Part shown: in pieces, positions 27,358 to 54,536 of the stretch
Layout of the letters: every line of letters starts with the position of its first letter
Numbering within the stretch: position 1 is the stretch's first letter
NCBI RefSeq assembly: GCF_014652235.1
Contig: NZ_BMYK01000012.1
Coordinates: 1 to 58,603 of the forward strand
Direction of reading: 5' to 3'
DNA length: 58,603 bases
Origin: Pseudorhodoferax aquiterrae
GTDB lineage: Bacteria > Pseudomonadota > Gammaproteobacteria > Burkholderiales > Burkholderiaceae_C
Notes under the pieces: generated by a model
The model's input: only the letters and a program-made list of their open reading frames with translations
Databases searched by the model: none
Told to the model about the DNA's origin: nothing
Translations under genes and position numbers: made by a program

Positions 27358-27371
27358 TCCTGCGCCACGCC

Positions 27372-29197: not shown

Positions 29198-29201
<4 letters not shown>
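28314..29201 (+). CDS. Liv-type ABC transporter permease (LivM family)
   Basis: The 295-residue membrane protein has the LivM signature LGLNLQAGYAGLLNFGNIAFAGLGAYA (in part), then LTGGANGITSIPSLF and MIGGLGNIAGVLVG. I prefer the GTG at 28314, six bases after GAGG and overlapping the livH end; a GTG at 28302 is the alternative. Its stop overlaps the start of the ATPase gene by ATGA, indicating translational coupling. Confidence 0.9.
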
Positions 29202-29991
<790 letters not shown>

Positions 29992-29995
<4 letters not shown>

Positions 29996-33607: not shown

Positions 33608-34312
33608 TCACCCCCCCAGGTAGGCCGCCCGCACGCCTTCGTCGGCCAGCATCTCGGCACCCGTGCCCTGGCGCACGATGCGCCCGTTGGTCAGCAGGTA
33701 GGCGCGGTCGCACATCTGCAGCGCGGCATAGGCGTTCTGCTCGACCATGAGCACGGTCGTGCCCTCGCGCCGGACCTCCTGCACGAGTTCGAAGATCATC
33801 TCGACGAAGTTGGGCGCCAGGCCCAGCGAGGGCTCGTCGAACATCACCAGGCGCGGGCGCGACATCAGCGCGCGCGCGATGGCCAGCATCTGCTGCTCGC
33901 CGCCGGACAGCGTGCCGGCGGCCTGGCCGGCGCGTTCGCGCAGGCGCGGGAACTTGTCGAACAGGCGCTCCATGTCCTGGCGCATGCGCTGGCGGTCGCT
34001 GCGGCGGTAGCCGCCCATCTCCAGGTTCTCGCGCACGGTGAGCTGCGGGAACACGCGCCGGCCCTCGGGGCAGTGCGCGATGCCGCGGTCGATGATCTGC
34101 GCCGGCAGGGCCCCGGAAATCCTGTAGCCGTCGAAGTGGATGCTGCCGGTCGTGAGCGGTTCCAGCCCGCTGATGGCGCGCAGCGTGGTCGACTTGCCGG
34201 CGCCGTTGGCGCCGATCAGCACCACGAGTTCACCCTCGTGCACTTCCAGTGTGATGCGGTCCACACCCAGGGTGGCGCCGTAGCGCACGGACACCTGTTC
34301 AAGCTTGAGCAT
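33608..34312 (-). CDS. Liv-type ABC transporter ATPase (LivF family), catabolic operon
   Basis: The 234-residue ATPase has Walker A GANGAGKST, signature LSGGEQQ, Walker B VMFDEPSLGLAP and MVEQNAYAAL. It is the last gene of the long minus-strand unit that starts with the SDR gene at 44338. Its start overlaps the LivG-type gene by 14 bp. With the other four transporter genes it probably imports the substrate of the molybdenum hydroxylase. Confidence 0.92.
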   Translation of the reverse strand: MLKLEQVSVRYGATLGVDRITLEVHEGELVVLIGANGAGKSTTLRAISGLEPLTTGSIHFDGYRISGALPAQIIDRGIAHCPEGRRVFPQLTVRENLEMGGYRRSDRQRMRQDMERLFDKFPRLRERAGQAAGTLSGGEQQMLAIARALMSRPRLVMFDEPSLGLAPNFVEMIFELVQEVRREGTTVLMVEQNAYAALQMCDRAYLLTNGRIVRQGTGAEMLADEGVRAAYLGG

Positions 34313-35078
34313 GCTGCAGCCCCGATCCGAGGTAGGCGCGAATGACTTCCGGGTCCTGCTGGATGGCCTTGGGGCCGCCCGTGGCGATGCGCTTGCCGTG
34401 GTTGAGCACGACGATGTGGTCGGAGATCGACATCACCATGTGCATGTCGTGCTCCACCAGCAGCACGGTGACGCCGCTGTCGCGGATGCGGCGCACCATC
34501 TCCTTGAAGGCGTCGGTCTCCGACGGGTTCAGGCCCGCGGCCGGCTCGTCCAGCAGCAGCACGCGCGGCTGCGCGGCCAGTGCCAGGCCCACGCCCAGCA
34601 GGCGCTGCTCGCCGTACGACAGGCTGCTGGCCAGCTCGTCGGCGCGCGACTGCAGGCCCAGGAAGCCGAGCATGGCGTGGGCCTGGGCGCGCAGCTCTTC
34701 TTCCTCGCGGCGAAAGCCCGTGCCGCGCAACAGCGCCTGCAGCACGCCGCTGCGGCCGCGCAGGTGCAGGCCCGTGAGCAGGTTGTCGAACACCGTGCAG
34801 CCCGCGAACACGCTGGTGCGCTGGAAGCTGCGCACCAGGCCGCGCTGGGCGATGCGGTCGGGCGACAGGCCCGTCACGTCCTCGCCGAACAGGAACACGC
34901 GGCCCGCGGTCGGGCGCATGTAGCCCGAGATCGCGTTGAAGGTGGTGGTCTTGCCGGCACCGTTGGGGCCGATCAGGCTCACGATCTGGCCCGCTTCGAC
35001 GGCAAAGCCCAGCTGGTCGACGGCGCGCAGGCCGGCGATCTGGATCGTGAGGTCTTCCAGGCGCAGGACTTCGCTCAT
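34299..35078 (-). CDS. Liv-type ABC transporter ATPase (LivG family), catabolic operon
   Basis: The 259-residue ATPase has Walker A GPNGAGKTT, RSFQRTSVF after the Q loop, LSYGEQR as a slightly altered signature, Walker B LLLDEPAAGLNP and LVEHDMHMVM. The long inter-motif insert is characteristic of LivG. It overlaps the LivM-type gene upstream by 4 bp. Confidence 0.92.
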   Translation of the reverse strand: MSEVLRLEDLTIQIAGLRAVDQLGFAVEAGQIVSLIGPNGAGKTTTFNAISGYMRPTAGRVFLFGEDVTGLSPDRIAQRGLVRSFQRTSVFAGCTVFDNLLTGLHLRGRSGVLQALLRGTGFRREEEELRAQAHAMLGFLGLQSRADELASSLSYGEQRLLGVGLALAAQPRVLLLDEPAAGLNPSETDAFKEMVRRIRDSGVTVLLVEHDMHMVMSISDHIVVLNHGKRIATGGPKAIQQDPEVIRAYLGSGLQHAQA

Positions 35079-36115
35079 GCAGCTTCTCCAGCCACCGTGG
35101 CGCGCGGCGCAGCCGCTTCGGCCGCAGGCTTCCTGCGGAACAGGCCGGACAGCGCCGGCACGATGCCGCGCGGCATGAAGACCAGGATCAGGACCATGAG
35201 CGCGCCGTACAGCATCCACTGCACCTCGGGCTTGAGCGTGCCGCGCAGCAGCTCGGGCAGCAGGCCGAACAGCAGCCCGCCCACCACCGGCCCGGCCAGC
35301 GTGCCCTTGCCGCCGACGATGACCATGATGACCATGGTGATCGTGAACATGAACATGAAGACGTCGGGGTCGATGATGCGCACCGTGTGCGCGTAGAGCC
35401 CGCCCGCGGCGCCCGCGATGGCGGCGGCGCCGACGGCTGCGATGCGCAGGTAGTGCGTGACGGGCACGCCGATCGAGCGCGCCAGCGTCTCGTTCTCGCG
35501 CAGCGCGACCATGGCGCGGCCCGTGCGGCTGTGCACCAGGCCCGCGACGACCAGCCAGGCCAGCACGGCCACGGCCAGCACCAGCCAGTAGGTCTGGGCC
35601 TTGGTCACGAGATCGACCACGCCGGAAGGCAGCCACAGCGTGAGCGGCGGGATGTTGTTGAGCGCCATCGGCCCCTCGGTCAGGTCGACCCAGTTGGTGG
35701 CCACCATGCGCATGACCTGGGCGAAGCTGATGGTCACGATCACGAAGTAGGCGCCGCGCACGCGGAAGGCCAGCTTGCCGACCAGCCAGCCGAACAGGCC
35801 GGCCACCACGATGCCGCTGCCGAACGCCAGCCATACCGGCTTGGGCGCGACGACGAAGGGCTCGTCCAGGCCCGGCAGCGACACGTCGAAGCCCAGCGAC
35901 AGCAGCGCGCTGGTGTAGGCACCGATGCCGAAGAAGGCCACGTGGCCCAGGCTCAGCTGGCCCGTGTAGCCCAGCAGCAGGTTCAGGCTGATGGCCGCCA
36001 CGATGAAGATGCCGGCCGATGCGACGACCGACAGCACGTAGGGATCGGGCCACCAGAACGGCAGGCCGGCCAGCACCAGCACGCTGGCCGCGAACAAGAC
36101 GACGGAGGGCTTCAT
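35075..36115 (-). CDS. Liv-type ABC transporter permease (LivM family), catabolic operon
   Basis: The 346-residue membrane protein has the LivM core SLNLLLGYTGQLSLGHVAF with FGIGAYTSALL, then LTEGPMALNNIPP and MVIVGGKGTLAGPVVG. Its C-terminus carries an Ala-rich charged tail. The chosen ATG overlaps the stop of the LivH-type gene (4 bp). Confidence 0.92.
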   Translation of the reverse strand: MKPSVVLFAASVLVLAGLPFWWPDPYVLSVVASAGIFIVAAISLNLLLGYTGQLSLGHVAFFGIGAYTSALLSLGFDVSLPGLDEPFVVAPKPVWLAFGSGIVVAGLFGWLVGKLAFRVRGAYFVIVTISFAQVMRMVATNWVDLTEGPMALNNIPPLTLWLPSGVVDLVTKAQTYWLVLAVAVLAWLVVAGLVHSRTGRAMVALRENETLARSIGVPVTHYLRIAAVGAAAIAGAAGGLYAHTVRIIDPDVFMFMFTITMVIMVIVGGKGTLAGPVVGGLLFGLLPELLRGTLKPEVQWMLYGALMVLILVFMPRGIVPALSGLFRRKPAAEAAAPRATVAGEAA

Positions 36116-36984
36116 CCCACACGCTCCTTCATGACGAACAGGCCCTGGGGCCGCAGCAGCATCACGCCCAGGATCACGAGAAAGCCGATCGCGTCGCGGT
36201 AGGCGGTGGAGATGTAGCCGGCGCCGAACTCCTCGATCAGCGCGAGCGCGAAGCCGCCCAGCGCAGCACCGGCCAGGTTGCCGAGACCACCCAGGATCAC
36301 GATGGCGAAGGCCTTCAGGCTCGCCAGGTCGCCCATGGTCGGGTTGACCACGAACACCGGCGCGAGCAGCGCGCCGGCCACGGCCGCCAGGCACGAGCCC
36401 AGCGCGAAGGTCAGCGTGTAGATGCGCGAGACGTTGACGCCGACGATCTTGGCCGCGTCCTTGTCCTGGAAGGTGGCCCGCATCGACAGCCCCAGCCGCG
36501 AGCGTTCGATGAGCAGGTAGAAGGCCACCAGCAGCACCAGCGCCGTGACGAGCACGAACAGCCGGATCGGCGAGACCGAGACCGCGCCCAGCACGATGGG
36601 CTCCTGCGAGAACGGCGAGGGCACGGCCTTGGCCACGCCGCCCCAGGCCAGCAGTTCGGCGTTCTGCAGCACGATCATCACGCCGATCATGATCAGCATG
36701 ACCTCGTCGATGGCCGCCAGGTTGCGCCGGCGCAGCAGCAGCCATTCGATGGCCGCGCCGGCCGCCAGGCCGACCGCGGCGGCCATCAGCACCGCGCCGA
36801 AGTAGTTCAGGCCCAGCAGCGACACGAAGCCGAAGGCCACGTAGGCACCCAGCGTGTACAGCTCGCCGTGCGCCATGTTGACCACCTTCATGATGCCGAA
36901 GATCAGCGTGAGGCCGATGCCCAGCAGCGCGTAGGTGGCCCCCAGCACGAGGCCGTTGAGCAGGTGTTGGAGGAACTGGTCCAC
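36112..36984 (-). CDS. Liv-type ABC transporter permease (LivH family), catabolic operon
   Basis: The 290-residue membrane protein has the LivH pattern GLTLIFGIMKVVNMAHGEL near residue 30 and VVNPTMGDLASLKAFAIV with ILGGLGNLAGA near residue 225. The best start is the GTG at 36984 (VDQFLQHLLNG), 16 bp after the binding-protein gene; the frame upstream of it is a shadow of that gene. Confidence 0.9.
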   Translation of the reverse strand: MDQFLQHLLNGLVLGATYALLGIGLTLIFGIMKVVNMAHGELYTLGAYVAFGFVSLLGLNYFGAVLMAAAVGLAAGAAIEWLLLRRRNLAAIDEVMLIMIGVMIVLQNAELLAWGGVAKAVPSPFSQEPIVLGAVSVSPIRLFVLVTALVLLVAFYLLIERSRLGLSMRATFQDKDAAKIVGVNVSRIYTLTFALGSCLAAVAGALLAPVFVVNPTMGDLASLKAFAIVILGGLGNLAGAALGGFALALIEEFGAGYISTAYRDAIGFLVILGVMLLRPQGLFVMKERVG

Positions 36985-37000
36985 GCCGGTGCCCTGTGCC

Positions 37001-38158
37001 TTACTTGACCGAGACGGTGCCGTCTTTGAGCTCGACGACGTAGATGCTGGGCTCGTTCTGGCCGCTCTCCTTGCCGGCCGGGCCTTCCTTGACGAAGTGC
37101 ACGTCGCCGTTGACCCCCTTGACCTGCACCTTCCACAGTGCATCGCGGATAGCGGCGGGCTCGGCCTTGCCGGCGAGCTTGAGCGCCTCGACGATGGTCA
37201 GGATGCCGTCGAAGCCGCGGAAGCCCTCGGTCTGGCCGGCGAAGTCGAACTTCTTCGCGTCCCAGGCGTCGGCGAACTCCTTGGCGACCGCGGGGTACTG
37301 CGCGCGCGCCACTTCCCAGGGTGCGAAGAACAGCAGGTGCTGGCTGGCGTAGCCCTTCGGGCCCGGCGTCTTGAGCAGCGGCTCGGGGAAGGAGCCGCCC
37401 GTGGTGATGATGCGCTGGGGCAGGCGCTGCTCGCCGGCCTGGCGGATCGCCAGCGTGAGCTGCTCGATGCCCGAGGTGACGATCACGGTGTCCGAACCGG
37501 TGGACTTCAGCGCGGCCAGCTGGGCCGACAGGTCGGTCGCGTCGGGCGCCATGGTCTCGGTGCGGCCCACGGCCACGCCCTTGGCCTCGAACATCTTCTT
37601 GAACTCGGCCGCGGCGCCCAGGCCCCAGTCGTTGTTGACCGACAGGAAGTCGACCTTCTTGATCGCCGGCGTGAAGGTGTCGATCTTCTTGCCGAAGGCG
37701 CTGGCCTCCATGGCCGAGGTCGGGCTGATGCGGAAGATCCAGGGGTTGCCGGCCGTGGTGATCTTGCCGGAGGAGGCCGTCTCCACCACCATGGGCACGC
37801 CGTACTCCATGAGCTTGGGCATCACCGCGAGCGTGAAGGTGGAGCTCCAGGCGCCCATCAGCACCGGCACCTTGTCCTTGAGGATCAGCTTCTCGACCGA
37901 GTTGACGGCCTCGCGCGGGTTGGACTTGTTGTCCTCGATCACGAGCTCGATCGGCTTGCCCAGCACGCCGCCCTTCTTGTTGACGAGTTCGGCGGCGATG
38001 CGTGCGCCGTTGGTCACGTAGGTGCCCGAGGCGGCGACGGGGCCGGTCAGCGGCTGGGTGATGCCGATCTTGATGGTGTCCTGCGCGAGCGCGGGAACGG
38101 CGAGGGCGACCAGGGCCGCGGCGGCCAGCGCGCTGCGCAGGAGATGGGACGGGTTCAT
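37001..38158 (-). CDS. Liv-type substrate-binding protein, catabolic operon
   Basis: The 385-residue periplasmic protein has a signal peptide ending ALA-QD and the type I binding-protein fold (IKIGITQPLTGPVAASG, NKKGGVLGKPIEL, NNDWGLGAAAEFKK). Its closest architecture is that of Liv-like proteins that bind aromatic or heterocyclic acids as well as amino acids. It follows the CoxG-like gene by 42 bp in the same operon, suggesting that it recognises the compound oxidised by the molybdenum hydroxylase. It differs markedly from the binding protein at 26245. Confidence 0.92.
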   Translation of the reverse strand: MNPSHLLRSALAAAALVALAVPALAQDTIKIGITQPLTGPVAASGTYVTNGARIAAELVNKKGGVLGKPIELVIEDNKSNPREAVNSVEKLILKDKVPVLMGAWSSTFTLAVMPKLMEYGVPMVVETASSGKITTAGNPWIFRISPTSAMEASAFGKKIDTFTPAIKKVDFLSVNNDWGLGAAAEFKKMFEAKGVAVGRTETMAPDATDLSAQLAALKSTGSDTVIVTSGIEQLTLAIRQAGEQRLPQRIITTGGSFPEPLLKTPGPKGYASQHLLFFAPWEVARAQYPAVAKEFADAWDAKKFDFAGQTEGFRGFDGILTIVEALKLAGKAEPAAIRDALWKVQVKGVNGDVHFVKEGPAGKESGQNEPSIYVVELKDGTVSVK

Positions 38159-38200
38159 GGCAATGCTTCCTTGGGACGGTGGGGAATTCGGTGCGGGGGA

Positions 38201-38863
38201 TCAGCCGCGGCGTGCGAACAGGCCGCGGAACCAGAGCTTGAGCAGGCTCCACAGGTCGATGGCGGCGGCCGGCGCAGGCGCTGAGGCGCGCGGCGCGGCC
38301 GGCGGCACCGGCGCCGGGAAGACGGTGGGTGCGCAGGCGACCGAGGCGGCGGCGGCCTGTGCGGCCGCGTCCTGCGCGGCATCCACCGGCGGCGCGGGCG
38401 CCTGCACGGCCTGCGGTAGCCGGGCCTGCAGGTTGTCGGCGAACTGGCGGGTCAGCTGCTCGGCCAGGGCGCGGACGATGCCTTCGCGGCTGAACTGCGC
38501 GAGCGATCCCGTGATCGCGAAGTCCACTGCCAGCGTCACGCGCGTGCCGACCGGGTCGGGCCACAGCGCGAAGCTGGCCTGGCCTTTCACGCGGCTGTTG
38601 CTCCGGGCATCGACGGCCGCGCCGGCGAAGCTGCCGCTCTGCGCGGCCTCGTCCAGCGCGAGCTGGCCCTGGCCTGCGAAGCCGGCCGCAATCGGCCCGA
38701 GCTTGACCTTGAACAGCAGCGGGATCTCGGCGCCGTCCACGACTTCGGCACCGGGCTTGATCGATGCGCCGGGCAGGCAATCGACCATGAGCCGCACGTC
38801 GTGGAAGGCCTGCCAGACGCGCGCGGGCTCGGCGGCCAGGGTGAAGGATTGCTCAAGCTGCAT
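38201..38863 (-). CDS. CoxG-like SRPBCC protein
   Basis: The 220-residue protein has an N-terminal SRPBCC/CoxG domain (residues 1-145) with FTLAAEPARVWQAFHDV, then LPGASIKPG. A Pro/Ala-rich linker leads to a C-terminal amphipathic stretch (LWSLLKLWFRGLFARRG), probably a membrane-anchoring tail. CoxG recruits CO dehydrogenase to the membrane in carboxydotrophs, and homologues accompany many other molybdenum hydroxylases. It overlaps the iron-sulfur subunit gene by 11 bp. Confidence 0.87.
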   Translation of the reverse strand: MQLEQSFTLAAEPARVWQAFHDVRLMVDCLPGASIKPGAEVVDGAEIPLLFKVKLGPIAAGFAGQGQLALDEAAQSGSFAGAAVDARSNSRVKGQASFALWPDPVGTRVTLAVDFAITGSLAQFSREGIVRALAEQLTRQFADNLQARLPQAVQAPAPPVDAAQDAAAQAAAASVACAPTVFPAPVPPAAPRASAPAPAAAIDLWSLLKLWFRGLFARRG

Positions 38864-39386
38864 GCGCGGCCTCCGTGGAAGCGGTGTGGGCGCGCTCGCG
38901 CAGCACGCGGGCGATGGCCTGCACGATGCCCTGGTAGCCCGTGCAGCGGCACAGGTTGCCGGCCAGTTCCTCGCGGATGCGCGCCTCGTCGGCCTGCGGC
39001 AGGCGCAGCACGATGTCGCGCGCCGTCATCAGCATGCCGGGCGTGCAGTAGCCGCACTGCAGTGCGTGTTCGGCCGAGAAGGCGGCACGCAGCTGGGCCA
39101 TCACGGCGTCGTCGTCGAAGGCCTCCAGCGTGCGCACCTGGCGGCCGACGAAGCGCACGGCCGATTGCAGGCAACTGCGCTGCGGCGCGCCGTCCACCTC
39201 GACCGTGCAGGCGCCGCAGACACCGTGCTCGCAGCCCAGGTGCGTGGCCGTCAGGCCGCAGTGCTCGCGCAGCGCGTCGGCCAGGTGGGTGCGCGGCTCC
39301 AGTTCGAGCGCGTGGGTGCGGCCGTTGACGCAGAGCGCGAAGCGCTCGGTCGCGACCGGCGGGAAGTCCAGGAAGGGGGTGTTCAT
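38853..39386 (-). CDS. molybdenum hydroxylase, 2Fe-2S small subunit
   Basis: The 177-residue protein has the plant-type ferredoxin cluster motif CEHGVCGAC with a downstream Cys in RSCLQ, and the second, alpha-helical 2Fe-2S site CGYCTPGM with CRCTGY. Both clusters are complete, so it can pass electrons from the molybdenum centre to FAD. The ATG overlaps the FAD-subunit stop. Confidence 0.95.
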   Translation of the reverse strand: MNTPFLDFPPVATERFALCVNGRTHALELEPRTHLADALREHCGLTATHLGCEHGVCGACTVEVDGAPQRSCLQSAVRFVGRQVRTLEAFDDDAVMAQLRAAFSAEHALQCGYCTPGMLMTARDIVLRLPQADEARIREELAGNLCRCTGYQGIVQAIARVLRERAHTASTEAAHAA

Positions 39387-40201
39387 CACGGCGTCTCCAG
39401 GTCGCGCAGGGCCAGCCGCAGCATCTCGGCCAGCATGGATTGGCGGGTGGCGTCCAGGCCCAGCTCTTGTGCGTCCAGCCAGCGCGCGCGCTCGGCGTCA
39501 CCGGCCAGGCGGGCGAGCAGGCCGGCCTCTTCGACCACGCGCGGCGGGCCGTCCAACGCGCCGAGCACCACGCGCTCGGTGCCATCGGCCGGGTCGATCA
39601 GGCAGCCGGCCAGCGCGTTGGCGAATTCGCCGGTCTTGCGGCAGAACTTGCGCCAGGCCCAGCGCGTGGCAGCCGAGCGGCGCGGCACGCGCACGGCGGT
39701 CAGCAGCTCGCCCTCGGCCAGGCAGGTCTCGAAGGCCGAGGCCATGAATGCGGCGGCCGGCACTTCGCGTGCGCCGCCGGGGCCGGCGAGCAGGCAGGTG
39801 GCGCCCAGCAGCGGCATGGCGTTGACCCAGTCGGCCGCCGGGTCGGCATGGCACAGGCTGCCGCCCAGCGTGCCGCGGTTGCGCACGGCGCGGTAGGCGA
39901 TGCCGCGGGCCACGCTGGGCATGAGGCCGCGCGTCGGGTCGGGCACCTGGCCGTCCTCGATCCACGCATGCGTGACCATGGCGCCGAAGCGCACCGCGTC
40001 TGGCGTTTCGTGCACGGCGCGCAGTTCTTCGATCGCATCGAGGTCGAGCAAGGTCTCGGGCTGGGCAAGGCGCAGGTTCAGCATGGCGCCCAGCGACTGG
40101 CCACCGGCGATGGGCTTGACGCCCCAGCCACCGTCGGCCAGACGCGCATGCAAAGCGGCCAGCGCGGCCGGCCGCTCCAGCGTGTAGGCAGCGGACTTCA
40201 T
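39386..40201 (-). CDS. molybdenum hydroxylase, FAD-binding medium subunit
   Basis: The 271-residue protein belongs to the CoxM/XdhB FAD family, with the FAD motifs IAGGQSLGAML (residues about 31-41) and RNRGTLGGSLCHADPAAD (about 108-125). The C-terminal CO-dehydrogenase flavoprotein domain is present. It is coupled to both partner genes by overlapping start/stop codons, consistent with an (LMS)2 complex in the cytoplasm. Confidence 0.94.
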   Translation of the reverse strand: MKSAAYTLERPAALAALHARLADGGWGVKPIAGGQSLGAMLNLRLAQPETLLDLDAIEELRAVHETPDAVRFGAMVTHAWIEDGQVPDPTRGLMPSVARGIAYRAVRNRGTLGGSLCHADPAADWVNAMPLLGATCLLAGPGGAREVPAAAFMASAFETCLAEGELLTAVRVPRRSAATRWAWRKFCRKTGEFANALAGCLIDPADGTERVVLGALDGPPRVVEEAGLLARLAGDAERARWLDAQELGLDATRQSMLAEMLRLALRDLETP

Positions 40202-42576: not shown

Positions 42577-42600
42577 CGTGGTGTCTCGGGGGCTGTGCGC

Positions 42601-43575
42601 TCAGACGCGGGTCTGGCGGTACTTCTCGGTGCGGTAGTCGCCCGAGCGCACGGGCGGGTACTTGGCTTCGCCGGGCGGCGCCACGCACTCGACCAGCGCG
42701 TCGTAGTTCGGGTGGTGGAAGAAGGCGATGGAGATGCGCTGCGCGGCCGGCCCGGCCTCGGCCGGCGGGTTCACGACGCGGTGCACGTTGGAGACCCAGC
42801 GGTCGTTGGTCCAGCGCATCAGCAGGTCGCCGATGTTGACGACGAAGGTGTCGGGCGCGGTCTCCACGGGCAGCCATTCGCCCTGGCGCGTGCAGACCTG
42901 CAGGCCGCCCGCGGTGTTCTCGCCGTTCAGGATGGTCAGCAGGCCGTAGTCGGTGTGGGCACCGGCGCGCAGCTGGCCGGGCTCGGGCGCGACCTTCTGC
43001 TCGGGGTAGAAGTTGATGCGCATCGCCGTGATGTGGCGGTCGATCTTGTCGTCGAAGAAGTCCTCGGGGATGCCCAGGGCCAGTGCGACCAGCGACATCA
43101 TTTCGCCCGTGAGCCGCTCCATCTGCGCGTAGTAGGCCGCGGCGGCTTCGGCGAAGCCGGGCTGCGCGGCGGGCCAGCGGTTCGGGATGAAATAGCCACG
43201 GCCCTCCTCGCCCGTGAAGTAGGGTTCGTCGGGCCAGTGCTCGCGGCCGAAGTGGTAGTACTCCTTGAGGTCGCCGGGCGCGTCGCCGGCGTTGCCGCGC
43301 GACAGCGCGTCGAAGCCCAGGGCGCGGTAGCCGCGCGGCACCCTGGGGTCCTGCGGCGCAGCGTCCAGCTTGGTGGCCAGCGGCAGGTTGAAGAAGTGCT
43401 TGGCGTGGCCACGCAGCGCATCGATGGTCTGCAACGGCACGCCGTGGCCTCGGATGGTGAAGAAGCCGATGTCGGTGCAGGCCGCTTCCATGGCGCGGGC
43501 CGCGCGCAGGCGCTCGTCGGCGCGGCCGTGCAGCGCGGCGGCCAGGTCGATGACAGGGATGGCACTGGTCGTCAT
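42601..43575 (-). CDS. isopenicillin-N-synthase-like Fe(II)/2-oxoglutarate oxygenase
   Basis: The 324-residue protein has the DIOX_N domain at the N-terminus (IPVIDLAAAL, GFFTIRGHGVP) and a double-stranded beta-helix core with the iron ligands in AHTDYGLLT and NVHRVV. The 2-oxoglutarate-binding Arg lies in RISIAFF. These soluble oxygenases hydroxylate or desaturate small molecules. It lies between the SDR and molybdenum hydroxylase genes (7 and 24 bp gaps), so two distinct oxygen-inserting chemistries are encoded in one operon. Nothing in the sequence fixes its substrate. Confidence 0.92.
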   Translation of the reverse strand: MTTSAIPVIDLAAALHGRADERLRAARAMEAACTDIGFFTIRGHGVPLQTIDALRGHAKHFFNLPLATKLDAAPQDPRVPRGYRALGFDALSRGNAGDAPGDLKEYYHFGREHWPDEPYFTGEEGRGYFIPNRWPAAQPGFAEAAAAYYAQMERLTGEMMSLVALALGIPEDFFDDKIDRHITAMRINFYPEQKVAPEPGQLRAGAHTDYGLLTILNGENTAGGLQVCTRQGEWLPVETAPDTFVVNIGDLLMRWTNDRWVSNVHRVVNPPAEAGPAAQRISIAFFHHPNYDALVECVAPPGEAKYPPVRSGDYRTEKYRQTRV

Positions 43576-43582
43576 GGCCGCC

Positions 43583-44338
43583 TCAGTGGAAGTAGGCGCC
43601 GCCGTCCACCACCAGCGTCTGGCCGGTGATGAAGGCCGACGGCGCGTCGGCGAAGAACTCGATGGCGCCGACCAGGTCGTCCGGCAGCATGTCGCGCGCC
43701 AGCACGCGGCCGCGCAGCGAGGGGCCCTTGACGCCCTCGACCAGCACCGGGTTGGCCAGTGCGCCGTCGCTGAGCGTGAAGCCCGGCGCCACGCTGTTGA
43801 CCAGCACCTTGTGCACGCCCAGCTCGGTCGCCAGCGCACGCGTGAGCGAGATCACCGCGCCCTTGCTCGCCACGTAGTGCGCCATGCCCGGGTTGCCCTT
43901 GAAGGCCACGCCCGAGGAGATGTTGACGATGCGCCCGCCGCCGGCGCGCTGGAAGGCCGGCAGCACGGCCTTGCAGGTGAGGAACACCCCCACCACGTTG
44001 ACGCCCAGCACCTGGTTCCATTCGGCCACCGTGAGCTGCTCGAAGGGCTTGGGCGTCAGCGAGGAATAGATTCCGGCGTTGTTGACCAGCACGTCGATGC
44101 GCCCGTACAACGCCTCGGCCTGGGCGGCCATGGCCTCGACCTGCTCGGGGCTGGAGACGTCCACCGTCACGCCCAGCGCGTCGACGCCCTGCCCGCGCAG
44201 CCGCTCGGCCGCGGCGTCGGCGCCATTGCGGTCGGCCACCACCACCTTGGCGCCGCGCGCGCCGAACCGTTGCGCGACGGCGTAGCCGATGCCCTGTGCC
44301 GCCCCCGTGACGATCGCCACCGCTTGTTCCAGACCCAT
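43583..44338 (-). CDS. short-chain dehydrogenase/reductase
   Basis: The 251-residue SDR has the cofactor motif TGAAQGIG, the NNAG structural motif, catalytic Ser in NISSG and YVASK supplying Tyr and Lys, with an acidic residue (VADRN) favouring NAD over NADP. It is the first gene of the 11-gene minus-strand operon. The ATG at 44338 has an AGGAG ten bases upstream. Its likely role is oxidation of an alcohol made by one of the neighbouring hydroxylating enzymes. Confidence 0.92.
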   Translation of the reverse strand: MGLEQAVAIVTGAAQGIGYAVAQRFGARGAKVVVADRNGADAAAERLRGQGVDALGVTVDVSSPEQVEAMAAQAEALYGRIDVLVNNAGIYSSLTPKPFEQLTVAEWNQVLGVNVVGVFLTCKAVLPAFQRAGGGRIVNISSGVAFKGNPGMAHYVASKGAVISLTRALATELGVHKVLVNSVAPGFTLSDGALANPVLVEGVKGPSLRGRVLARDMLPDDLVGAIEFFADAPSAFITGQTLVVDGGAYFH

Positions 44339-44380
44339 GTTCACCGTGCTCCTGTCAGTTGCACGGCACACAGCAACTGC

Positions 44381-44403
44381 CATGCCACTAAGGCAATGGC
44401 ATG
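44381..44403. promoter_or_regulatory. inverted repeat in the leader of the SDR operon
   Basis: CATGCCA (44381-44387) and TGGCATG (44397-44403) are exact inverted copies separated by 9 bases, 43 bp before the SDR start. It could be an operator for a second regulator or a leader hairpin. Confidence 0.35.
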
Positions 44404-44459
44404 CAGCAGTCTCTGATCCAGGTCATTGAAACAAAAAGATTTTTTCTGCGCTCAACTAC

Positions 44460-44471
44460 GTGGTGCACCAC
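44460..44471. promoter_or_regulatory. 12-bp perfect palindrome, candidate MarR operator
   Basis: GTGGTGCACCAC is a perfect palindrome in the 227-bp space between the SDR operon start and the end of the MarR gene, followed directly by CATATATG. The related sequence GTGCGGTACACCAC occurs in front of the oppositely oriented amidohydrolase operon, so both units may be controlled by the same regulator. Confidence 0.5.
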
Positions 44472-44565
44472 ATATATGGGGCCGGCGCGAGGCCTGGGGT
44501 GCACCGATGTGGCGCGCCGCCGCCGCCTTCAAACCAAAACGGGGCACACCATCGGTCGCTGTCCG

Positions 44566-45075
44566 TCAGCGCAGCTTCCAGGGCACCACGCTGGTGTCGT
44601 TGTGCGATTCCACGAGCTGGATCAGCTGCAGCATGAAGCGCTCGCGTTCGCCCTCCGGCAGGTAGGCGATGGTGCGGTCGTGGGCACGCTGGGCCGCACC
44701 GTCCATGCGCTTGGCCAGCGCCCGCCCCTTGCGCGCGATGCGCACCAGCTTCACGCGCCGGTCGGCCTCGGACTGGCGGCGCTCGACCAGGCCGCGCGCC
44801 TCCAGCCGCGGCAGCACCTCGGCCACGCTGGTGCGCTCCAGGCCGACCTCGTAGGCCAGCGTGTTCTGGTCCATCTCGCCATGCTCGGCCAGCACCGTCA
44901 GCAGGCTGTACTGCACGGGCGTGACGTTGTATTGCTGGGTTTCCTCGGTGAACAGCCAGGTGTGGATCTGGTGCAGCCGGCGGATCAGGAAGCCGGGCCG
45001 GGCGAACAGCGCGGAACGCTCGCAGTAGTGGTCCAGCTGGGCGCGGACCGGCCGGGGATCGTGTTCTTCTGTCAT
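44566..45075 (-). CDS. MarR-family transcriptional regulator
   Basis: The 169-residue protein has the MarR winged helix-turn-helix (residues about 50-110: NVTPVQYSLLTVLAEHG, the recognition segment LERTSVAEVLPRLEARGLVERR in part, and the wing DRRVKLVRI) between dimerisation helices. It sits between the two divergent catabolic units and is the natural candidate for their common repressor. An upstream TTG in frame would add two residues; ATG 45075 is preferred. Confidence 0.92.
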   Translation of the reverse strand: MTEEHDPRPVRAQLDHYCERSALFARPGFLIRRLHQIHTWLFTEETQQYNVTPVQYSLLTVLAEHGEMDQNTLAYEVGLERTSVAEVLPRLEARGLVERRQSEADRRVKLVRIARKGRALAKRMDGAAQRAHDRTIAYLPEGERERFMLQLIQLVESHNDTSVVPWKLR

Positions 45076-45134
45076 GCGCAAAGTCTAGCCGCGCCCCGCC
45101 TTGGCGCCTGCACCAGAACGGCGCCTGCCGGCTG

Positions 45135-45157
45135 GCACAAATTGTGCGGTACACCAC
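45135..45157. promoter_or_regulatory. overlapping palindromes, candidate MarR operator of the plus-strand unit
   Basis: GCACAA-A-TTGTGC (45135-45147) is a perfect 6+1+6 palindrome, and the overlapping GTGCGGTACACCAC (45144-45157) resembles the palindrome at 44460. They lie in the 121-bp gap between the MarR start and the amidohydrolase start, where autorepression and divergent control would act. Confidence 0.5.
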
Positions 45158-45196
45158 CTATCAGCTCTCACTACCGCACAGGAAGCAGGCAAGACA

Positions 45197-46465
45197 ATGA
45201 CCAGCATGGTTCTGCAAGGGGGCCGGGTGATCGACCCCGGCGCCGGCCGCGACGGCCTATTCGACGTTCTCGTCACCGACGGGCGCATCGCCGCCATCGG
45301 CAACGACCTGGGTGCCGCCGTGCCGGCCGACGCCCAGCGGGTGGACTGCCGCGGCAAACTGGTGCTGCCCGGCCTGATCGACACCCACGGCCACGTCTAC
45401 CAGGGCGTCACGGGCCGCTTCGGCATGAACGCCGACCTGTGCGGCGTGCGCTCGGGCGTGACCACGCTCATCGACCAGGGCGGCCCGAGCTGCATCACGC
45501 TGCCGGGCTTTCGTCAGTACGTGGCCGAGCCCTCGCACACGCGCGTGCTGGCCTTCCTGTCGGCCTACCTGGTCGGCGGCCTGGAGGGCCACTACTACCC
45601 CGAGCTGTACCGGCCCGAGTGCCTGGACGTGGACGCCACCGTGAAGTCCGCGCGCCAGAACCGCGATCTGGTGCGCGGCCTGAAGGCCCATGCCGAGATC
45701 GGCGGCTTCGCGCGCTGGGGCGTGCAGGTCATGCGCATCGCCGCGCGCATCGGCCGCGAGGCCGCGCTGCCCGTCTACATCCACTTCGGCCAGCTGTGGC
45801 CCAAGCCCGAGGCCGGCGGCCTGCCCGTGAACCCCGATTCCATCTTCAACCAGGTGGTGGAGATGCTCAAGCCCGGCGACATCCTGGCCCATCCGTTCAG
45901 CCGCCACCCGGGCGGGTTCGTCGAGGAAGACGGCAAGCTGCATCCGCTGGTGCCCGAGGCCGTGGCGCGCGGGCTCAAGATCGACGTGGGCCACGGCTCG
46001 CACTTCAGCTACAAGACGGCGCGCATCGTGCTGGACGCCGGCATCGTGCCCGACACGCTGGGGGCCGACATGCACGGCTACAACACCGCCGTGCCGCAGC
46101 CGGCCGGCACGCCCGACAGCCACCCGGACGAGGAAGACCACCTGTTCAAGGGCAAGACGCGCTTCGGCCTGGTCTCGGCCATGACCAGCATGCTGGCGCT
46201 GGGCCTGCCGCTCACGCACGTGGTGGACATGGTCACGCGCAACGCGGCCCGCATGGCCGGCCTGGAGGGCGAACTCGGCACGCTCCAGGTCGGCGGCGTG
46301 GCCGACGTGAGCGTGCTCAACGACGAGCGCGGCCGCTGGCGGATGGCCGACAACGAGGGCACGCAGGTCATCGCCGAGCGGCTGCTGACGCCGGCCTTCT
46401 GCCTGCGCGCGGGCCGGCGCTTCGAGGCCGACGCCTCCATCCTGCCGGTGGCGCAGGAAGCATGA
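45197..46465 (+). CDS. dihydroorotase-like amidohydrolase
   Basis: The 422-residue enzyme has the cyclic-amidohydrolase layout: N-terminal strands (LQGGRVIDPGAGRDG), the HxH metal pair in GLIDTHGHVYQ, further metal histidines in VYIHFGQ and ILAHPFSRH, and a C-terminal GGVADVSVL strand. It resembles the amidohydrolase/deacetylase (Ef0837-like) branch rather than pyrimidine dihydroorotase, so a cyclic amide, a hydantoin-like ring or an N-acyl amino acid is plausible. The start 45197 follows AGGAAGCAGG. It heads the plus-strand unit divergent from the MarR gene and overlaps the next gene by 4 bp. Confidence 0.9.
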   Translation: MTSMVLQGGRVIDPGAGRDGLFDVLVTDGRIAAIGNDLGAAVPADAQRVDCRGKLVLPGLIDTHGHVYQGVTGRFGMNADLCGVRSGVTTLIDQGGPSCITLPGFRQYVAEPSHTRVLAFLSAYLVGGLEGHYYPELYRPECLDVDATVKSARQNRDLVRGLKAHAEIGGFARWGVQVMRIAARIGREAALPVYIHFGQLWPKPEAGGLPVNPDSIFNQVVEMLKPGDILAHPFSRHPGGFVEEDGKLHPLVPEAVARGLKIDVGHGSHFSYKTARIVLDAGIVPDTLGADMHGYNTAVPQPAGTPDSHPDEEDHLFKGKTRFGLVSAMTSMLALGLPLTHVVDMVTRNAARMAGLEGELGTLQVGGVADVSVLNDERGRWRMADNEGTQVIAERLLTPAFCLRAGRRFEADASILPVAQEA

Positions 46466-48063
46466 CGCAGCCCGTACGCGGCCGCCGCGGCATGGCGGTC
46501 GCCCCCCACGCGCTGGCCTCGCAGTCGGCTCTCGCAGTCCTGCGCGAAGGCGGCAATGCCATCGAGGCCATGGTGGCCGCGGCCGCCACCATCGCCGTCG
46601 CCTACCCGCACATGAACGGCATCGGCGGCGACAGCTTCTGGCTGGTCGGCCTGCCGGGCGCTGGCGGGACCGAGGTGGTGGGCATCGACGCCTGCGGCGC
46701 CAGCGCCGCGGCCGTGCGGCCCGAGGACTACGCCGGGCGCAGCGCCATCCCGTTCCGCGGCGGCTCGGCCGCCATCACCGTGGCCGGCACGCTGGCGGGC
46801 TGGGACCAGGCGCTGGCGCTGAGCCGCACGCGGCTGGGCGGGCGCCTGCCGCTGTCCCGCCTGCTGGCCGACGCCATCGACGGCGCGCGCCACGGCGTGC
46901 CCGTGACCGTGAGCCAGCACCGCAACAGCGCCGCCAAGCAGGCGGAGCTGCAGGACATTGCCGGTTTCGCCGAGACCTTCCTGCCCGGCGGCCAGGCGCC
47001 GGCCGCGGGCGGCCTGTTCCGGCAGCCGCGGCTGGCCGCCACCTTCGAGCAGCTGGCCCGCGCCGGGCTGGACGACTTCTACCGCGGCGATCTGGCCCGC
47101 AGCCTGGCACGCGACCTGCGGGCCGTGGGCAGCCCGCTGGCGCTGGACGACCTGGCACAGCACCGCGCACGGCTGGTGGAGCCGCTGCGGCTGGCGCACC
47201 GCGCCGGCACCGTCTACAACATGCCGCCGCCCACGCAGGGCCTGGTCTCGCTGATCATCCTCGGCTTGATGGACCGTCTGGGCGTGGAGCGCTTCGACCA
47301 CCTCGGCGCCGACTACGTGCACGCGGCGGCCGAATCGGTCAAGCAGGCCTTCTCCGTGCGCGACGGCCACATCACCGACCCCGGCTGCATGGCGGTGGAC
47401 CCGGCCAGCTTCCTGCAGCCGGCCGCGCTCGACGCCATGGCCGCACGCATCGACATGGGCCGCGCGGCCGCCTGGGGCCAAGGCAAAGGACCGGCCGACA
47501 CGGTCTGGATGGGCGTGGTCGATGGCCAGGGCCGTGCGGTCTCGATGATCCAGAGCATCTACCATGAGTTCGGCTCGGGCCTGGTGCTGGCCGAGAGCGG
47601 CGTGAACTGGCAGAACCGCGGCGCCTCGTTCTCGCTGGACCCCGGCCACATCAACACCCTCGCGCCGCGCAAGAAGCCCTTCCACACGCTGAACCCGGCG
47701 CTGGCGCTGCTGGACGACGGCCGCACCATGGTCTACGGCAACATGGGCGGCGACGGCCAGCCGCAGAGCCAGTCGGCCGTGTTCACGCGCTGCGTGGTGC
47801 ACGGGCTGGACCCGCAGGCCGCCATCGCCGCGCCGCGCTGGCTGCTGGGCCGCACCTGGGGCCAGAGCAGCGACACGCTCAAGCTCGAGAACCGCTTCCC
47901 CGAAGCCACCGTGCAGGAACTGCGCGCCCGTGGGCACGCCGTGGAGGTGCTGGGCGCCTTCGACGAAACCTTCGGCCATGCCGGCTGCATCCTGCGCGAC
48001 GCCGCGGGCACCTGCACCGGCGGCTTCGACCCCCGCTCCGACGGCGCCGTCGCCGCGTTCTGA
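46462..48063 (+). CDS. gamma-glutamyltransferase-like Ntn hydrolase (YwrD type)
   Basis: The 533-residue protein has the gamma-glutamyltranspeptidase fold: VLREGGNAIEAMVAAA and NGIGGDSFWLV in the large subunit, and a likely autoprocessing Thr in the segment DTVWMGVVD, aligned with the TTHYSVVD site of E. coli GGT. The later GESG-like AESGVNWQNRG and the PFHTLNPALAL region are also present. There is no signal peptide, unlike periplasmic GGT, so it acts in the cytoplasm. Its likely task is hydrolysis of a gamma-glutamyl-like or other amide intermediate. It is coupled to the amidohydrolase and to the DUF1116 gene (TGATG). Confidence 0.9.
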   Translation: MTQPVRGRRGMAVAPHALASQSALAVLREGGNAIEAMVAAAATIAVAYPHMNGIGGDSFWLVGLPGAGGTEVVGIDACGASAAAVRPEDYAGRSAIPFRGGSAAITVAGTLAGWDQALALSRTRLGGRLPLSRLLADAIDGARHGVPVTVSQHRNSAAKQAELQDIAGFAETFLPGGQAPAAGGLFRQPRLAATFEQLARAGLDDFYRGDLARSLARDLRAVGSPLALDDLAQHRARLVEPLRLAHRAGTVYNMPPPTQGLVSLIILGLMDRLGVERFDHLGADYVHAAAESVKQAFSVRDGHITDPGCMAVDPASFLQPAALDAMAARIDMGRAAAWGQGKGPADTVWMGVVDGQGRAVSMIQSIYHEFGSGLVLAESGVNWQNRGASFSLDPGHINTLAPRKKPFHTLNPALALLDDGRTMVYGNMGGDGQPQSQSAVFTRCVVHGLDPQAAIAAPRWLLGRTWGQSSDTLKLENRFPEATVQELRARGHAVEVLGAFDETFGHAGCILRDAAGTCTGGFDPRSDGAVAAF

Positions 48064-49166
48064 TGACCACGCCCACCGACTTCTCCGCCTGGGCCGCCCC
48101 GTTCGCGGGCGCCGCCTGGCGCAACGTGGTGCGCCGCCACGTGGCACTGCCGCATCTGGGCCGCGACGTGCTGCTGCACGCCGGCCCGCCCTTCGAGGGC
48201 GCGCCGCCCGCACCCGTGCGCCAGGCGGCCGTGCAGGCCCTGCTGTTCGAAGGCCTCGCCGACGACGCGGCCGCGGCCCAGGCGCTGCTGGCGACAGGCG
48301 CGGTGCGCCTCGTGCCCGCGCAGGACCATGGCGTGGCCACGCCGCTGGCCCAGGTGGTCTCGGCCGCGATGCCCTTGGCCGAGGTCGGCGATGGCAGCAC
48401 CCAAGCCTGGGCGCCATTGGTCGAAGGGCCGCCGCCCGCGCTGCGCTTCGGCACCAGCGACCCGGCCGCGCTGCCGCGCCTGCAGGCCGTCACCGAGCTG
48501 GGCCTGCAGCGCCTGGCGCCGCTGCTGCAGGCACAGCCGCTGCCCCTGGCTCCCGTGATCGCCCAGGCGCTGGCCGAAGGCGACGAATGCCATGGCCGCA
48601 CGGGCGCGGCCAACGCGGCCCTGCTGGAGCGGCTCGACGGGCTGGCGGACGCCGATCGCGCACTGCTGGCCGGCAGCCCGGGCTTCGTGCTGACCATCCT
48701 GATGGCGGCCGCGGCCTGGCGCATGCGCCAGCCCGGCGCGCACATCGCGGCCGCCGGCGGCAACGGCCTGCGTTTCGGCCTGCGCCTGCACGGCGAAACG
48801 CACTGGCGCGCCATCGGTGCGACGCCTCCCACCGGAACGCGGTTTCCCGCGCACGCGGGTGCTGCGGCGCTGGGCGCGATCGGCGACAGCGCCGTGCTCG
48901 ACTTCTGCGGCCTGGGCGGCCAGGCCCTGCTGGCCGCGCCGGCCCTGTGCGAGGAATGGCGCGGCTCGCTGCCGTCCGACCTCGCGCAGCGCCGCGCGGC
49001 CGTCAGCGACGCCGCCACGGGCCTGGTCGCGCCCCACAGCGTCGCCGCGAGCGGCCTGCCACCGCTGGTCAACCTGGCCGTGCTCGACGCGTCCGGCGCG
49101 GCCGGACTGATCGGCCGCGGCTGGTACGCGCCGGATCCTGCCCTGTTCCACCCCCTCCCCCGCTGA
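48063..49166 (+). CDS. DUF1116 protein (AllG/YlbE-like)
   Basis: The 367-residue protein matches the DUF1116 pattern: VTPLAQVVS-like ATPLAQVVSAAMPLAEVGDG, then the acidic APLVEGPPPALRFG, PVIAQALAEGDECHGRTGAAN and a glycine-rich AAAGGNGLRFGLRL. In E. coli the family members YlbE (AllG) and YahG lie next to FdrA-type proteins, and AllFGH has been linked to oxamate carbamoyltransfer in anaerobic allantoin use. Here neither FdrA/AllF nor AllH is encoded in the window. At 367 residues it is shorter than YlbE. A carbamoyl-transfer step in the pathway is inferred, not shown. Confidence 0.8.
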   Translation: MTTPTDFSAWAAPFAGAAWRNVVRRHVALPHLGRDVLLHAGPPFEGAPPAPVRQAAVQALLFEGLADDAAAAQALLATGAVRLVPAQDHGVATPLAQVVSAAMPLAEVGDGSTQAWAPLVEGPPPALRFGTSDPAALPRLQAVTELGLQRLAPLLQAQPLPLAPVIAQALAEGDECHGRTGAANAALLERLDGLADADRALLAGSPGFVLTILMAAAAWRMRQPGAHIAAAGGNGLRFGLRLHGETHWRAIGATPPTGTRFPAHAGAAALGAIGDSAVLDFCGLGGQALLAAPALCEEWRGSLPSDLAQRRAAVSDAATGLVAPHSVAASGLPPLVNLAVLDASGAAGLIGRGWYAPDPALFHPLPR

Positions 49167-49178
49167 AGGACCCACGCC

Positions 49179-50213
49179 ATGAAGCTGTCTTCGCTCTCCC
49201 GCCTGCGCACTGCCGCTCTGCTGACGCTGGCCACCCTGGCCGGCGCCGCCGGCGCGCAGCAGCCGACCAAGCTGCGCTTCGCGCTCGACTGGGTCTTCCA
49301 GGGCCCGCAGGCGCCGTTCCTGGTGCCGCACCACAACGGCTGCTACCAGAAGGCCGGGCTGGACGTGACCACCGACCGCGGCTTCGGCTCGGGCGACACC
49401 GTGGTCAAGGTCGGCGCCGGCACCTACGACGTCGGCTTCGCCGACATCAACGCGATGGTCGAGTACAACGCCAAGCAGACCCGGCCCGAGGACCGGCTGA
49501 TCGCCTTCTTCATGGTCTACGACGGCGCCGCGCTGTCCATCATCACGCGCAAGGACACCGGCGTCGCCAAGCCGGCCGACCTGGTCGGCAAGACCATCGC
49601 GGCGCCGCCCGGCGATGCCTCGCGCCGGCTGTTCCCGGCGCTGGCCCAGGCCAACGGCTTCGACGCCGGCGCCGTGAAATGGATGAACGTGGCGCCCGAG
49701 CTGCGCGAGACCATGCTCGCGCGCAAGCAGGCCGATGCCATCAGCGGCGCGGCCTTCACGGGCTACATGGGTGCGCGCGCGGTCGGCGTGCCCAAGGACG
49801 AGCTGGTCGTGATGCGCTTCCCGCAGTTCGGCTCCACGCTCTACGGCAGCGCGCTGGTGACCAAGCGCGCATTCGCCGCCAGCCATGGCCCGGCGCTGAC
49901 GGCGCTGGCCCAGTGCGTGGCCGAGGGCATCGTGACCAGCATCCGCCAGCCGGCCAGCGCCATCGAGGCCCTGTACCAGCGCGACAAGCTCATCAACCGC
50001 GAGGTCGAGCAGGAGCGCCTGCAGCTGTCGCTGGACTGGTCCATCGTGACCCCCTGGACCCGCGCCAACGGCCTCGGCGGCGTCGACCCGGTGCGGCTGG
50101 GCAAATCGATGCAGGAAGTGGCATCGGCGCTGAACATCGCGGCGCCCGACGCGGCCGAGGTGTTCACCACGCAGTACCTGCCGCCGGCCGAGCGGCGCGC
50201 CGTGCCGAAGTAG
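49179..50213 (+). CDS. NMT1/TauA-type ABC substrate-binding protein (orphan)
   Basis: The 344-residue periplasmic protein has a signal peptide ending AGA-QQ and the NMT1/THI5-like fold (LDWVFQGPQAPFLVP, CYQKAGLDV, VGAGTYDVGFADINAM). Relatives bind sulfonates, pyrimidine precursors, nitriles and aromatic acids. It is 12 bp behind the DUF1116 gene with an AAGGA site, but no matching permease or ATPase is present, so it may use components encoded elsewhere. A GCCGCCG/CGGCGGC hairpin (50224-50248) follows and may end the unit. Confidence 0.9.
   Translation: MKLSSLSRLRTAALLTLATLAGAAGAQQPTKLRFALDWVFQGPQAPFLVPHHNGCYQKAGLDVTTDRGFGSGDTVVKVGAGTYDVGFADINAMVEYNAKQTRPEDRLIAFFMVYDGAALSIITRKDTGVAKPADLVGKTIAAPPGDASRRLFPALAQANGFDAGAVKWMNVAPELRETMLARKQADAISGAAFTGYMGARAVGVPKDELVVMRFPQFGSTLYGSALVTKRAFAASHGPALTALAQCVAEGIVTSIRQPASAIEALYQRDKLINREVEQERLQLSLDWSIVTPWTRANGLGGVDPVRLGKSMQEVASALNIAAPDAAEVFTTQYLPPAERRAVPK

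Positions 50214-50819: not shown

Positions 50820-54536
<3,717 letters not shown>

Follow-up and report, generated by a model that had tools for sequence, protein, structure and literature searches.

A MarR-flanked gene cluster of Pseudorhodoferax aquiterrae unites a molybdenum hydroxylase, a COG3964-type amidohydrolase and a short AllG protein in a candidate pathway for N-heterocycle catabolism

The hpxWXYZ genes of Klebsiella form an oxalurate/oxamate operon. Role names for HpxY and HpxW are given in the available excerpt of PMC12625717. In E. coli, AllG acts in the AllFGH complex and all three genes are required, according to an excerpt of PMC11326118, while the atzDGEHF operon for cyanuric acid combines a ring-opening hydrolase, an amidase and a decarboxylation by an AtzH/HpxZ-type (DUF3225) protein, in which AtzH converts 1,3-dicarboxyurea to allophanate (PMC6219798, excerpt). 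Here we analyse the interval 33608-50213 of contig NZ_BMYK01000012.1 of Pseudorhodoferax aquiterrae (assembly GCF_014652235.1); the window, i.e., the whole stretch of DNA that was analysed, comprises positions 1 to 58,603. Two divergent units flanking one MarR regulator encode a molybdenum hydroxylase, an amidohydrolase and a short protein of the AllG (DUF1116) family, together with further enzymes and uptake proteins. The best explanation, in our view, is a MarR-controlled pathway that would degrade an N-heterocycle through oxalurate and oxamate, a reading drawn from sequence comparison to which we assign a probability of roughly 0.45. We are highly confident that the genes form one pathway, because genes of both units lie in a single same-strand run in 27 of 71 loci and a putative operator is shared by both units. 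The parts are of known kinds; what is new is that they occur together, that AllG stands there without its partners, and that the oxidation step can be exchanged. Among the matches listed from open-access PMC literature, no account of the gene set as a described pathway was recognised.

All 16 genes named in a preliminary description, which was made from the sequence alone, were located at the coordinates listed below, with Pfam matches above the cut-offs and a coding-like GC content at third codon positions (GC3 0.90-0.97). The minus unit consists of 11 genes, LivF, LivG, LivM, LivH, LivK, CoxG, CoxS, CoxM, CoxL, a 2-oxoglutarate/Fe(II) oxygenase (DIOX) and an SDR dehydrogenase, which overlap or sit at most 42 bp apart between the SDR start at 44338 and the LivF end at 33608. 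The plus unit (45197-50213) holds four genes, for the amidohydrolase (AHase), a gamma-glutamyltranspeptidase (GGT)-family hydrolase, AllG/DUF1116 and an NMT1-type binding protein, the first two joined by an ATGA overlap. Between the two units is the MarR gene, separated by 227 bp from the SDR gene on one side and by 121 bp from that of the amidohydrolase on the other.

33608..34312, minus strand: LivF-type ABC ATPase (PF00005, 113.7 bits)
34299..35078, minus strand: LivG-type ABC ATPase (PF00005 and BCA_ABC_TP_C; start per gene call)
35075..36115, minus strand: LivM-type permease (PF02653, 151.9 bits; start per gene call)
36112..36984, minus strand: LivH-type permease (PF02653, 155.8 bits; start per gene call)
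37001..38158, minus strand: LivK-type periplasmic binding protein (PF13458, 210.1 bits)
38201..38863, minus strand: CoxG/SRPBCC protein (PF06240, 33.4 bits, cut-off 22.2)
38853..39389, minus strand: CoxS-like 2Fe-2S subunit of the molybdenum hydroxylase (PF01799, PF00111; cysteine motifs by eye)
39386..40201, minus strand: CoxM-like FAD subunit of the molybdenum hydroxylase (PF00941, 135.5 bits)
40198..42576, minus strand: CoxL-class molybdopterin subunit of the molybdenum hydroxylase (PF20256, PF02738, PF01315)
42601..43575, minus strand: 2-oxoglutarate/Fe(II) oxygenase, DIOX (DIOX_N and 2OG-FeII_Oxy on a longer frame)
43583..44338, minus strand: SDR dehydrogenase (PF00106, 198.4 bits; YVASK motif by eye)
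44460..44471, no strand: putative operator 1, GTGGTGCACCAC, perfect palindrome upstream of the SDR gene
44566..45075, minus strand: MarR-family regulator (PF01047, 53.0 bits)
45146..45157, no strand: putative operator 2, GCGGTACACCAC, one mismatch, upstream of the amidohydrolase gene
45197..46465, plus strand: COG3964/PRK09237-type metal-dependent amidohydrolase, AHase (NF006689; PDB 2ogj)
46462..48063, plus strand: HpxW-type GGT-family hydrolase (PF01019, 416.7 bits)
48063..49166, plus strand: short AllG (DUF1116) protein (PF06545, 108.3 bits, cut-off 27)
49179..50213, plus strand: NMT1/THI5-like periplasmic binding protein (PF09084, 78.3 bits)

Named genomes were scanned for AllG with an aligned set of the window protein and four relatives as query; this gave 70 loci, in which the other genes were counted by tblastn (E ≤1e-8, at least 40% query coverage). 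AllG as the search anchor is present in all 70; because no flank exceeds 10 kb and contig ends truncate 20 of the loci, the true presence of the other genes may be higher. The AHase was matched in 55 loci, CoxS in 46, CoxM in 45, and CoxL, CoxG and MarR in 43 each, versus only 14 for the GGT, 10 for the SDR (5 at ≥70% identity), six for NMT1 (4 at ≥79%) and five for DIOX; as a conserved unit, the 16-gene combination of the preliminary description therefore did not hold. With the window included, AHase and AllG are co-present in 56 of 71 loci, and AHase, CoxL and AllG form the same-strand run mentioned above, with gaps of at most 300 bp, in 27; the concern that the two units might rarely be found together was not borne out. 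The stretch from CoxG to NMT1 recurs in four more Variovorax/Pseudorhodoferax loci (L033-L036), and the core gene set recurs in other families and classes. Cupriavidus plantarum (L037) carries CoxLMS-CoxG-LivKHMGF-AHase-AllG on one strand, and the independently annotated plasmid of Caballeronia sp. M1242 has the order MarR, amidohydrolase, large, FAD and 2Fe-2S subunits of the xanthine dehydrogenase (XDH) family, SRPBCC, DUF1116, hpxZ, amidase, PhyH and ABC genes. In Xylophilus sp. ASV27 (L026/L099), the AHase is split between two frames and the AllG frame opens with ABC-ATPase sequence, so that this cluster looks decayed or rearranged.

A check independent of AllG used a 300-genome sample of the order and an AHase threshold of E ≤1e-60. 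The AHase occurred in 15 genomes, 14 times at ≥62% identity, and the AllG family in 29. In all seven genomes classed by score as having short AllG, not counting G583:C110 (of unclear type at 185 bits), the partial G606:C66 and G427, which fell below the cut-off, an AHase gene lies no more than 4 kb from AllG; canonical AllG in the sample was never found on the same contig as an AHase hit. Seven of the 14 AHase genomes have AllG nearby (the window's own included), and an eighth, G555, has a piece of AllG, 124 residues long, at the end of a contig. Among AHase loci without AllG, CoxLMS are present in L105 and L106, other CoxL-type genes in L110, and a Rieske-like pair, judged by likeness to the tested L114 gene, in L111; no oxygenase was recognised in L107 and L108.

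Joint regulation of the units, suggested in the preliminary description, gained support from the putative MarR operator GTGGTnnACCAC, which stands before both. When the window and its four near relatives were set aside, the motif, with up to one mismatch allowed, was counted 65 times in 154,761 bp of intergenic DNA and 60 times in 1,133,638 bp of coding DNA, a 7.9-fold higher intergenic density; nine permuted half-site palindromes used as a control gave 0-16 intergenic hits with ratios of 0-2.9. An operator-like site lies within 400 bp upstream in 27 of the 44 AHase genes with enough upstream DNA, and similar sites are found ahead of transporter, Rieske, PhyH and other genes as well. MarR would presumably bind the putative operators. 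An extension of the regulon over the whole genome by way of perfect operators was rejected, since these occur in 4 places versus 6 for the reversed control; the regulon thus looks local.

The CoxL subunit is most similar among solved structures to quinoline 2-oxidoreductase (E 1.4e-145); two CO dehydrogenases come next, and an enzyme for 6-hydroxypseudooxynicotine ranks fourth. It remains under all 13 NCBIfam cut-offs listed, CO dehydrogenase and XDH among them. On these cut-offs we rejected its identity as a CO dehydrogenase (530.9 vs 950 and 449.8 vs 991 bits for the large-subunit models) and as an XDH, for which the best model, XdhA, gave 367.1 vs 780 bits. The loop that reads AYxCSFR in aerobic CO dehydrogenase is PYRGVAR in the window protein. 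The oxygenase had been called IPNS (isopenicillin N synthase)-like: its 2-oxoglutarate/Fe(II) family stands, with the HxD...H metal triad and RxS recognised by eye (HTD, SNVHRV, RISI), whereas the closest solved relative is thymine dioxygenase (E 1.1e-42) and IPNS ranks much lower. Similarly, the dihydroorotase-like amidohydrolase is indeed an amidohydrolase and exceeds NF006689 (421.1 vs 371 bits), and no dihydroorotase model passed among the 25 best NCBIfam matches shown. Its top PDB match, 2ogj (E 3.1e-50), is labelled dihydroorotase in the record; we take this structure to be Atu3266, a COG3964 amidohydrolase. An allantoinase was rejected at 45 vs 358 bits.

In the lower half of the cluster, the GGT has as its closest solved match 5hft, which is named there only gamma-glutamyltranspeptidase and is presumably HpxW of K. 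pneumoniae. The putative nucleophile Thr347, at which the B chain of 5hft begins, is invariant in 19 aligned sequences including the window, and by eye no signal peptide was seen. We propose, on this homology, an HpxW-type protein and candidate oxamate amidohydrolase. It is 53-55% identical to the GGTs directly 3' of AllG in four AllF-kinase-AllG clusters (L027, L029-L031) from the same bacterial family as the window; a fifth such locus, L028, stops just past AllG. In L029, L030 and L031 the order is AllF-kinase-(unassigned gene)-AllG-GGT with an adjoining class-V-type aminotransferase (Pfam run on the L029 gene only), and these clusters probably represent an oxalurate-to-oxalate route. The aminotransferase would fit the formation of oxalurate by ureidoglycine-glyoxylate transamination.

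HpxZ-family and amidase genes, counted like the oxygenases as sequence clusters of which one or two members each were run against Pfam/NCBIfam, connect AllG with the same chemistry. An HpxZ-family gene is found in 13 loci and adjoins AllG in 11; beyond these 13, 10 of 73 AllG genes (L026 and L099, one contig, being counted twice) encode a fusion with an HpxZ-family domain, all 10 accompanied by the c11 amidase family. One HpxZ-family member reached the HpxZ equivalog at 185 vs 135 bits and one c11 member the PRK08310 amidase at 525 vs 391 bits, staying below the AtzE models. The HpxZ family co-occurs with GGT in some other loci, and in the own genome an HpxZ match (214.8 bits) lies on contig C4, preceded by an amidase match at a distance of about 1 kb. 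By analogy with AtzH, HpxZ would decarboxylate an N-carboxy-oxamate. Overall, we lean towards a lower pathway half of the oxalurate/oxamate type. The order of import, hydroxylation, ring opening, deamidation and carbamoyl handling in the preliminary description fits, the last two steps now falling to the HpxW-type GGT and the AllG/HpxZ families. Its author knew of no named pathway with this combination, but the lower half does resemble the oxalurate branch of the hpx and all systems.

The DUF1116 protein noted previously is present under a newer family name, as Pfam now describes PF06545 as AllG, the oxamate carbamoyltransferase subunit. Its predicted model (pLDDT 96) has the 3clq fold with a TM (template modelling) score of 0.83 by query length, and the fold search returned only 3clq chains at E ≤0.001 and no distant superfamily. 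In an unrooted tree with some long branches flagged, six canonical AllGs lie on one side of a 100/100 branch and the window AllG on the other. The tree omits L026 and L099 and adds L112-L114, L112 being identical to L069; the larger alignment comprises the window and 69 loci, leaving out L025 as well as L026 and L099 with their irregular reading frames. In a nine-sequence alignment, short AllG retains LHAG, RxG, GD.H.R, NG and GDS, and differs from the canonical proteins in having CH..NAVGPM versus AQ..VVTPL and RNG versus GNG. E. coli AllF, AllH and carbamate kinase gave no tblastn match in the 70 short-AllG loci, and AllH was found in 2 of 50 short-AllG genomes tested (50 of the 70 loci). 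A canonical AllFGH complex with partners encoded elsewhere in the own genome found no support, the best AllF match there being only 23% identical over 140 residues (E 7.7e-4) and AllH having none.

It is doubtful, though conceivable, that short AllG is a decarbamoylase of oxalurate-like compounds, stand-alone or fused to HpxZ and independent of AllF and AllH. As such it would close a widespread unnamed aerobic route with interchangeable oxygenases (Mo hydroxylase, Rieske, flavin), in which a COG3964 amidohydrolase opens imidazolone, hydantoin or similar cyclic ureide rings and nitrogen is salvaged via oxamate. In three Rhodobacterales loci (L046, L047, L054), short AllG and amidase are accompanied by genes that Pfam, run on L054, assigns to a class I/II aminotransferase, a Rieske oxygenase and the aspartoacylase family, by an aldehyde dehydrogenase-like gene recognised by eye and by an unassigned 200-residue family, c24, immediately 5' of AllG; this set is perhaps another AllG pathway beginning at an amino acid.

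The upper half of the pathway is modular, as Mo-hydroxylase, Rieske or flavin oxygenases stand with the same amidohydrolase-AllG core. Counted per locus, whether or not the gene belongs to the operon, and with one member per family tested, the 71 loci divide into 46 with CoxL (one also with a luciferase-family gene), 10 with a VanA-type Rieske oxygenase and reductase, four with another Rieske type, one with a luciferase-type flavin oxygenase alone and 10 in which none of these oxygenases was seen. The substitute Rieske oxygenase is closest among solved structures to SxtT/SxtDIOX and next to methylxanthine demethylases. The transporter also varies among loci (Liv, cystine/arginine, NMT1). Window-type DIOX and SDR occur only in the window's own group and in Stutzerimonas azotifigens (L091), where SDR, DIOX and LivKHMGF at 66-78% identity lie near AHase-CoxLMS-CoxG-AllG; a PhyH-type 2-oxoglutarate oxygenase is found in 17 of 74 loci, elsewhere than in the window group.

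Plasmid pmega_2 of Rhodococcus ruber MSA14 (L116, L120, L121), typed as conjugative, carries two DUF1116 genes, two pairs of ring-hydroxylating oxygenase and VanB-type reductase, a formate dehydrogenase and malate synthase G. It is a possible actinobacterial counterpart, and the gene content of pmega_2 gave no substrate identification. DUF1989 (UAAP-type) genes of families c27 and c49 lie near MarR or an ABC transporter in L048, L055, L062, L073, L086, L088, L096 and L102, in L062, L073 and L088 together with an allantoate-amidohydrolase-type M20 gene (c53); these neighbours hint at guanidine- or ureide-like substrates.

We hypothesize that the whole cluster would serve the use of a small N-heterocycle as nitrogen source under MarR control. 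The Liv-type ABC system would import the substrate, and the Mo hydroxylase, as expected for the CoxL class, would oxidise a ring carbon adjoining nitrogen. The 2-oxoglutarate oxygenase could then hydroxylate a saturated ring carbon and the SDR turn the alcohol to a ketone, after which the AHase would open a parabanate-like cyclic imide to N-carbamoyl or N-acyl oxamate, e.g., oxalurate. Short AllG, in other species presumably together with HpxZ and an amidase, may convert N-carbamoyl oxamate to oxamate, as the fusion and operon context suggest, and the HpxW-type hydrolase may release oxalate and ammonia from oxamate, as suggested by homology and context. The substrate would most likely be a five-membered cyclic ureide or imide or an aromatic precursor, and its degradation through oxalurate and oxamate is our best guess. 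The earlier proposal of a purine, pyrimidine or hydantoin derivative was a guess at the substrate class, and that the ring is a hydantoin, imidazolone or related cyclic ureide in particular is rather unlikely.

If correct, this pathway would assign a role to a large subfamily of AllG/DUF1116 proteins that occur without the partners E. coli needs and would explain the AllG-HpxZ fusion. It would also define a regulon with a putative operator, whose inducer is directly screenable, place COG3964 amidohydrolases, which are annotated as dihydroorotases, in a pathway, and offer environmental bacteria a further way to recover nitrogen from ring compounds.

Several observations weigh against the oxalurate/oxamate route. 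To our knowledge, the COG3964 enzymes described to date are ester or amide hydrolases, not cyclic imidases. Parabanic acid turns spontaneously into oxaluric acid at neutral or alkaline pH, according to an excerpt of PMC5703782, so that an enzyme for exactly that step is hardly needed. As AllFGH requires all three proteins and neither AllF nor AllH was found in the own genome, the reaction of short AllG may differ. The window cluster has no HpxZ and no c11-type amidase, GGT and DIOX are scarce among the loci, 17 of the 44 AHase genes lack an operator-like site upstream, perfect operators are not enriched in the own genome, and 6 of the 14 AHase genomes show no AllG, some on short contigs. No oxalyl-CoA decarboxylase exceeded the cut-off in the own genome, other oxalate enzymes not having been searched, so the route might stop at oxalate. 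Parabanate use is impaired in an ntrC mutant of Burkholderia (PMC5491218, excerpt), a result with no bearing on the window genes.

A tentative but substantial alternative is that the genes do form one pathway, but for a different class of ring, such as a pyridine, pyrazine, pyrimidine or methylated heterocycle. The GGT and AllG would then have changed their specificity to other small amides or to N-carbamoyl acids, and oxalurate and oxamate would not be intermediates. The solved relatives of CoxL, with the quinoline enzyme at the top and the 6-hydroxypseudooxynicotine enzyme behind the CO dehydrogenases, would suit such rings, the substitute Rieske enzymes resemble N-demethylases among others, and short AllG departs from canonical AllG at conserved motifs; yet HpxZ-family proteins are repeatedly beside or fused to short AllG, and the window GGT is close to those of the canonical AllF-kinase-AllG clusters. 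In another reading, short AllG has no catalysis of its own and is a structural partner of HpxZ and amidase or of the AHase step. Its being one of three required subunits in E. coli (PMC11326118, excerpt) and its fusion to HpxZ would allow for this, but GD.H.R, NG and GDS are common to canonical and short AllG, and many loci retaining AllG show no HpxZ and no amidase, which leaves a purely structural role quite improbable.

Ordinary purine/allantoin catabolism, with the Mo hydroxylase as XDH and the amidohydrolase as allantoinase, would account for the overlap of the lower enzymes with the hpx and all pathways, and Rieske and Mo oxygenases alternate in purine oxidation too. The scores of CoxL and AHase against XdhA and allantoinase, far below the cut-offs, and the failure of E. 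coli AllD and AllE to match any of the 70 loci, with AllC matching three, make it very unlikely. Least credible of all are two unrelated units merely sharing the neighbourhood of a regulator: they are divergent in the window and some AHase genes stand without AllG, but the idea is largely refuted by the co-linearity of AHase, CoxL and AllG, and the same putative operator stands ahead of both units. The oxalurate/oxamate pathway remains the explanation that we prefer.

Elsewhere in the window, 22373-31538 carries consecutive genes for a PutA-type proline dehydrogenase/aldehyde dehydrogenase, for another Liv-type binding protein along with ABC components, and for a member of the P5CR family. Downstream of the plus unit, 50868-54536 encodes a large hybrid histidine kinase with CHASE and several PAS domains, whose family, c29, is likewise downstream in 3 of the 4 near-relative loci.

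Set against the known systems, the cluster shares with the E. coli allFGHK oxamate branch (oxamic transcarbamylase and carbamate kinase) an AllG-family protein with common core motifs, and the four canonical-type clusters in relatives from the window's family end in the same kind of GGT. Unlike in that branch, AllF, AllH and the kinase are unmatched near short AllG, which falls outside the canonical clade and has a Mo hydroxylase and a COG3964 amidohydrolase alongside. With Klebsiella hpxWXYZ it has in common the HpxW-type GGT and, across the wider locus set, the HpxZ family and an amidase, whereas the window-type loci have AllG, the tested amidase is of the PRK08310 type, and the oxygenases and AHase differ. 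The sequence of ring-opening hydrolase, amidase and HpxZ-type step recalls atzDGEHF, but window-type loci use another ring-opening enzyme and have AllG. Quinoline 2-oxidoreductase, of the CoxL-class N-heterocycle hydroxylases, provides the closest solved CoxL relative and a three-subunit layout with CoxG, although no other quinoline-pathway gene was recognised. Finally, the amidohydrolase agrees with the COG3964 enzymes in its best PDB match (2ogj) and in passing NF006689, and differs from them in that it is tied here to Mo hydroxylase or Rieske genes and to AllG.

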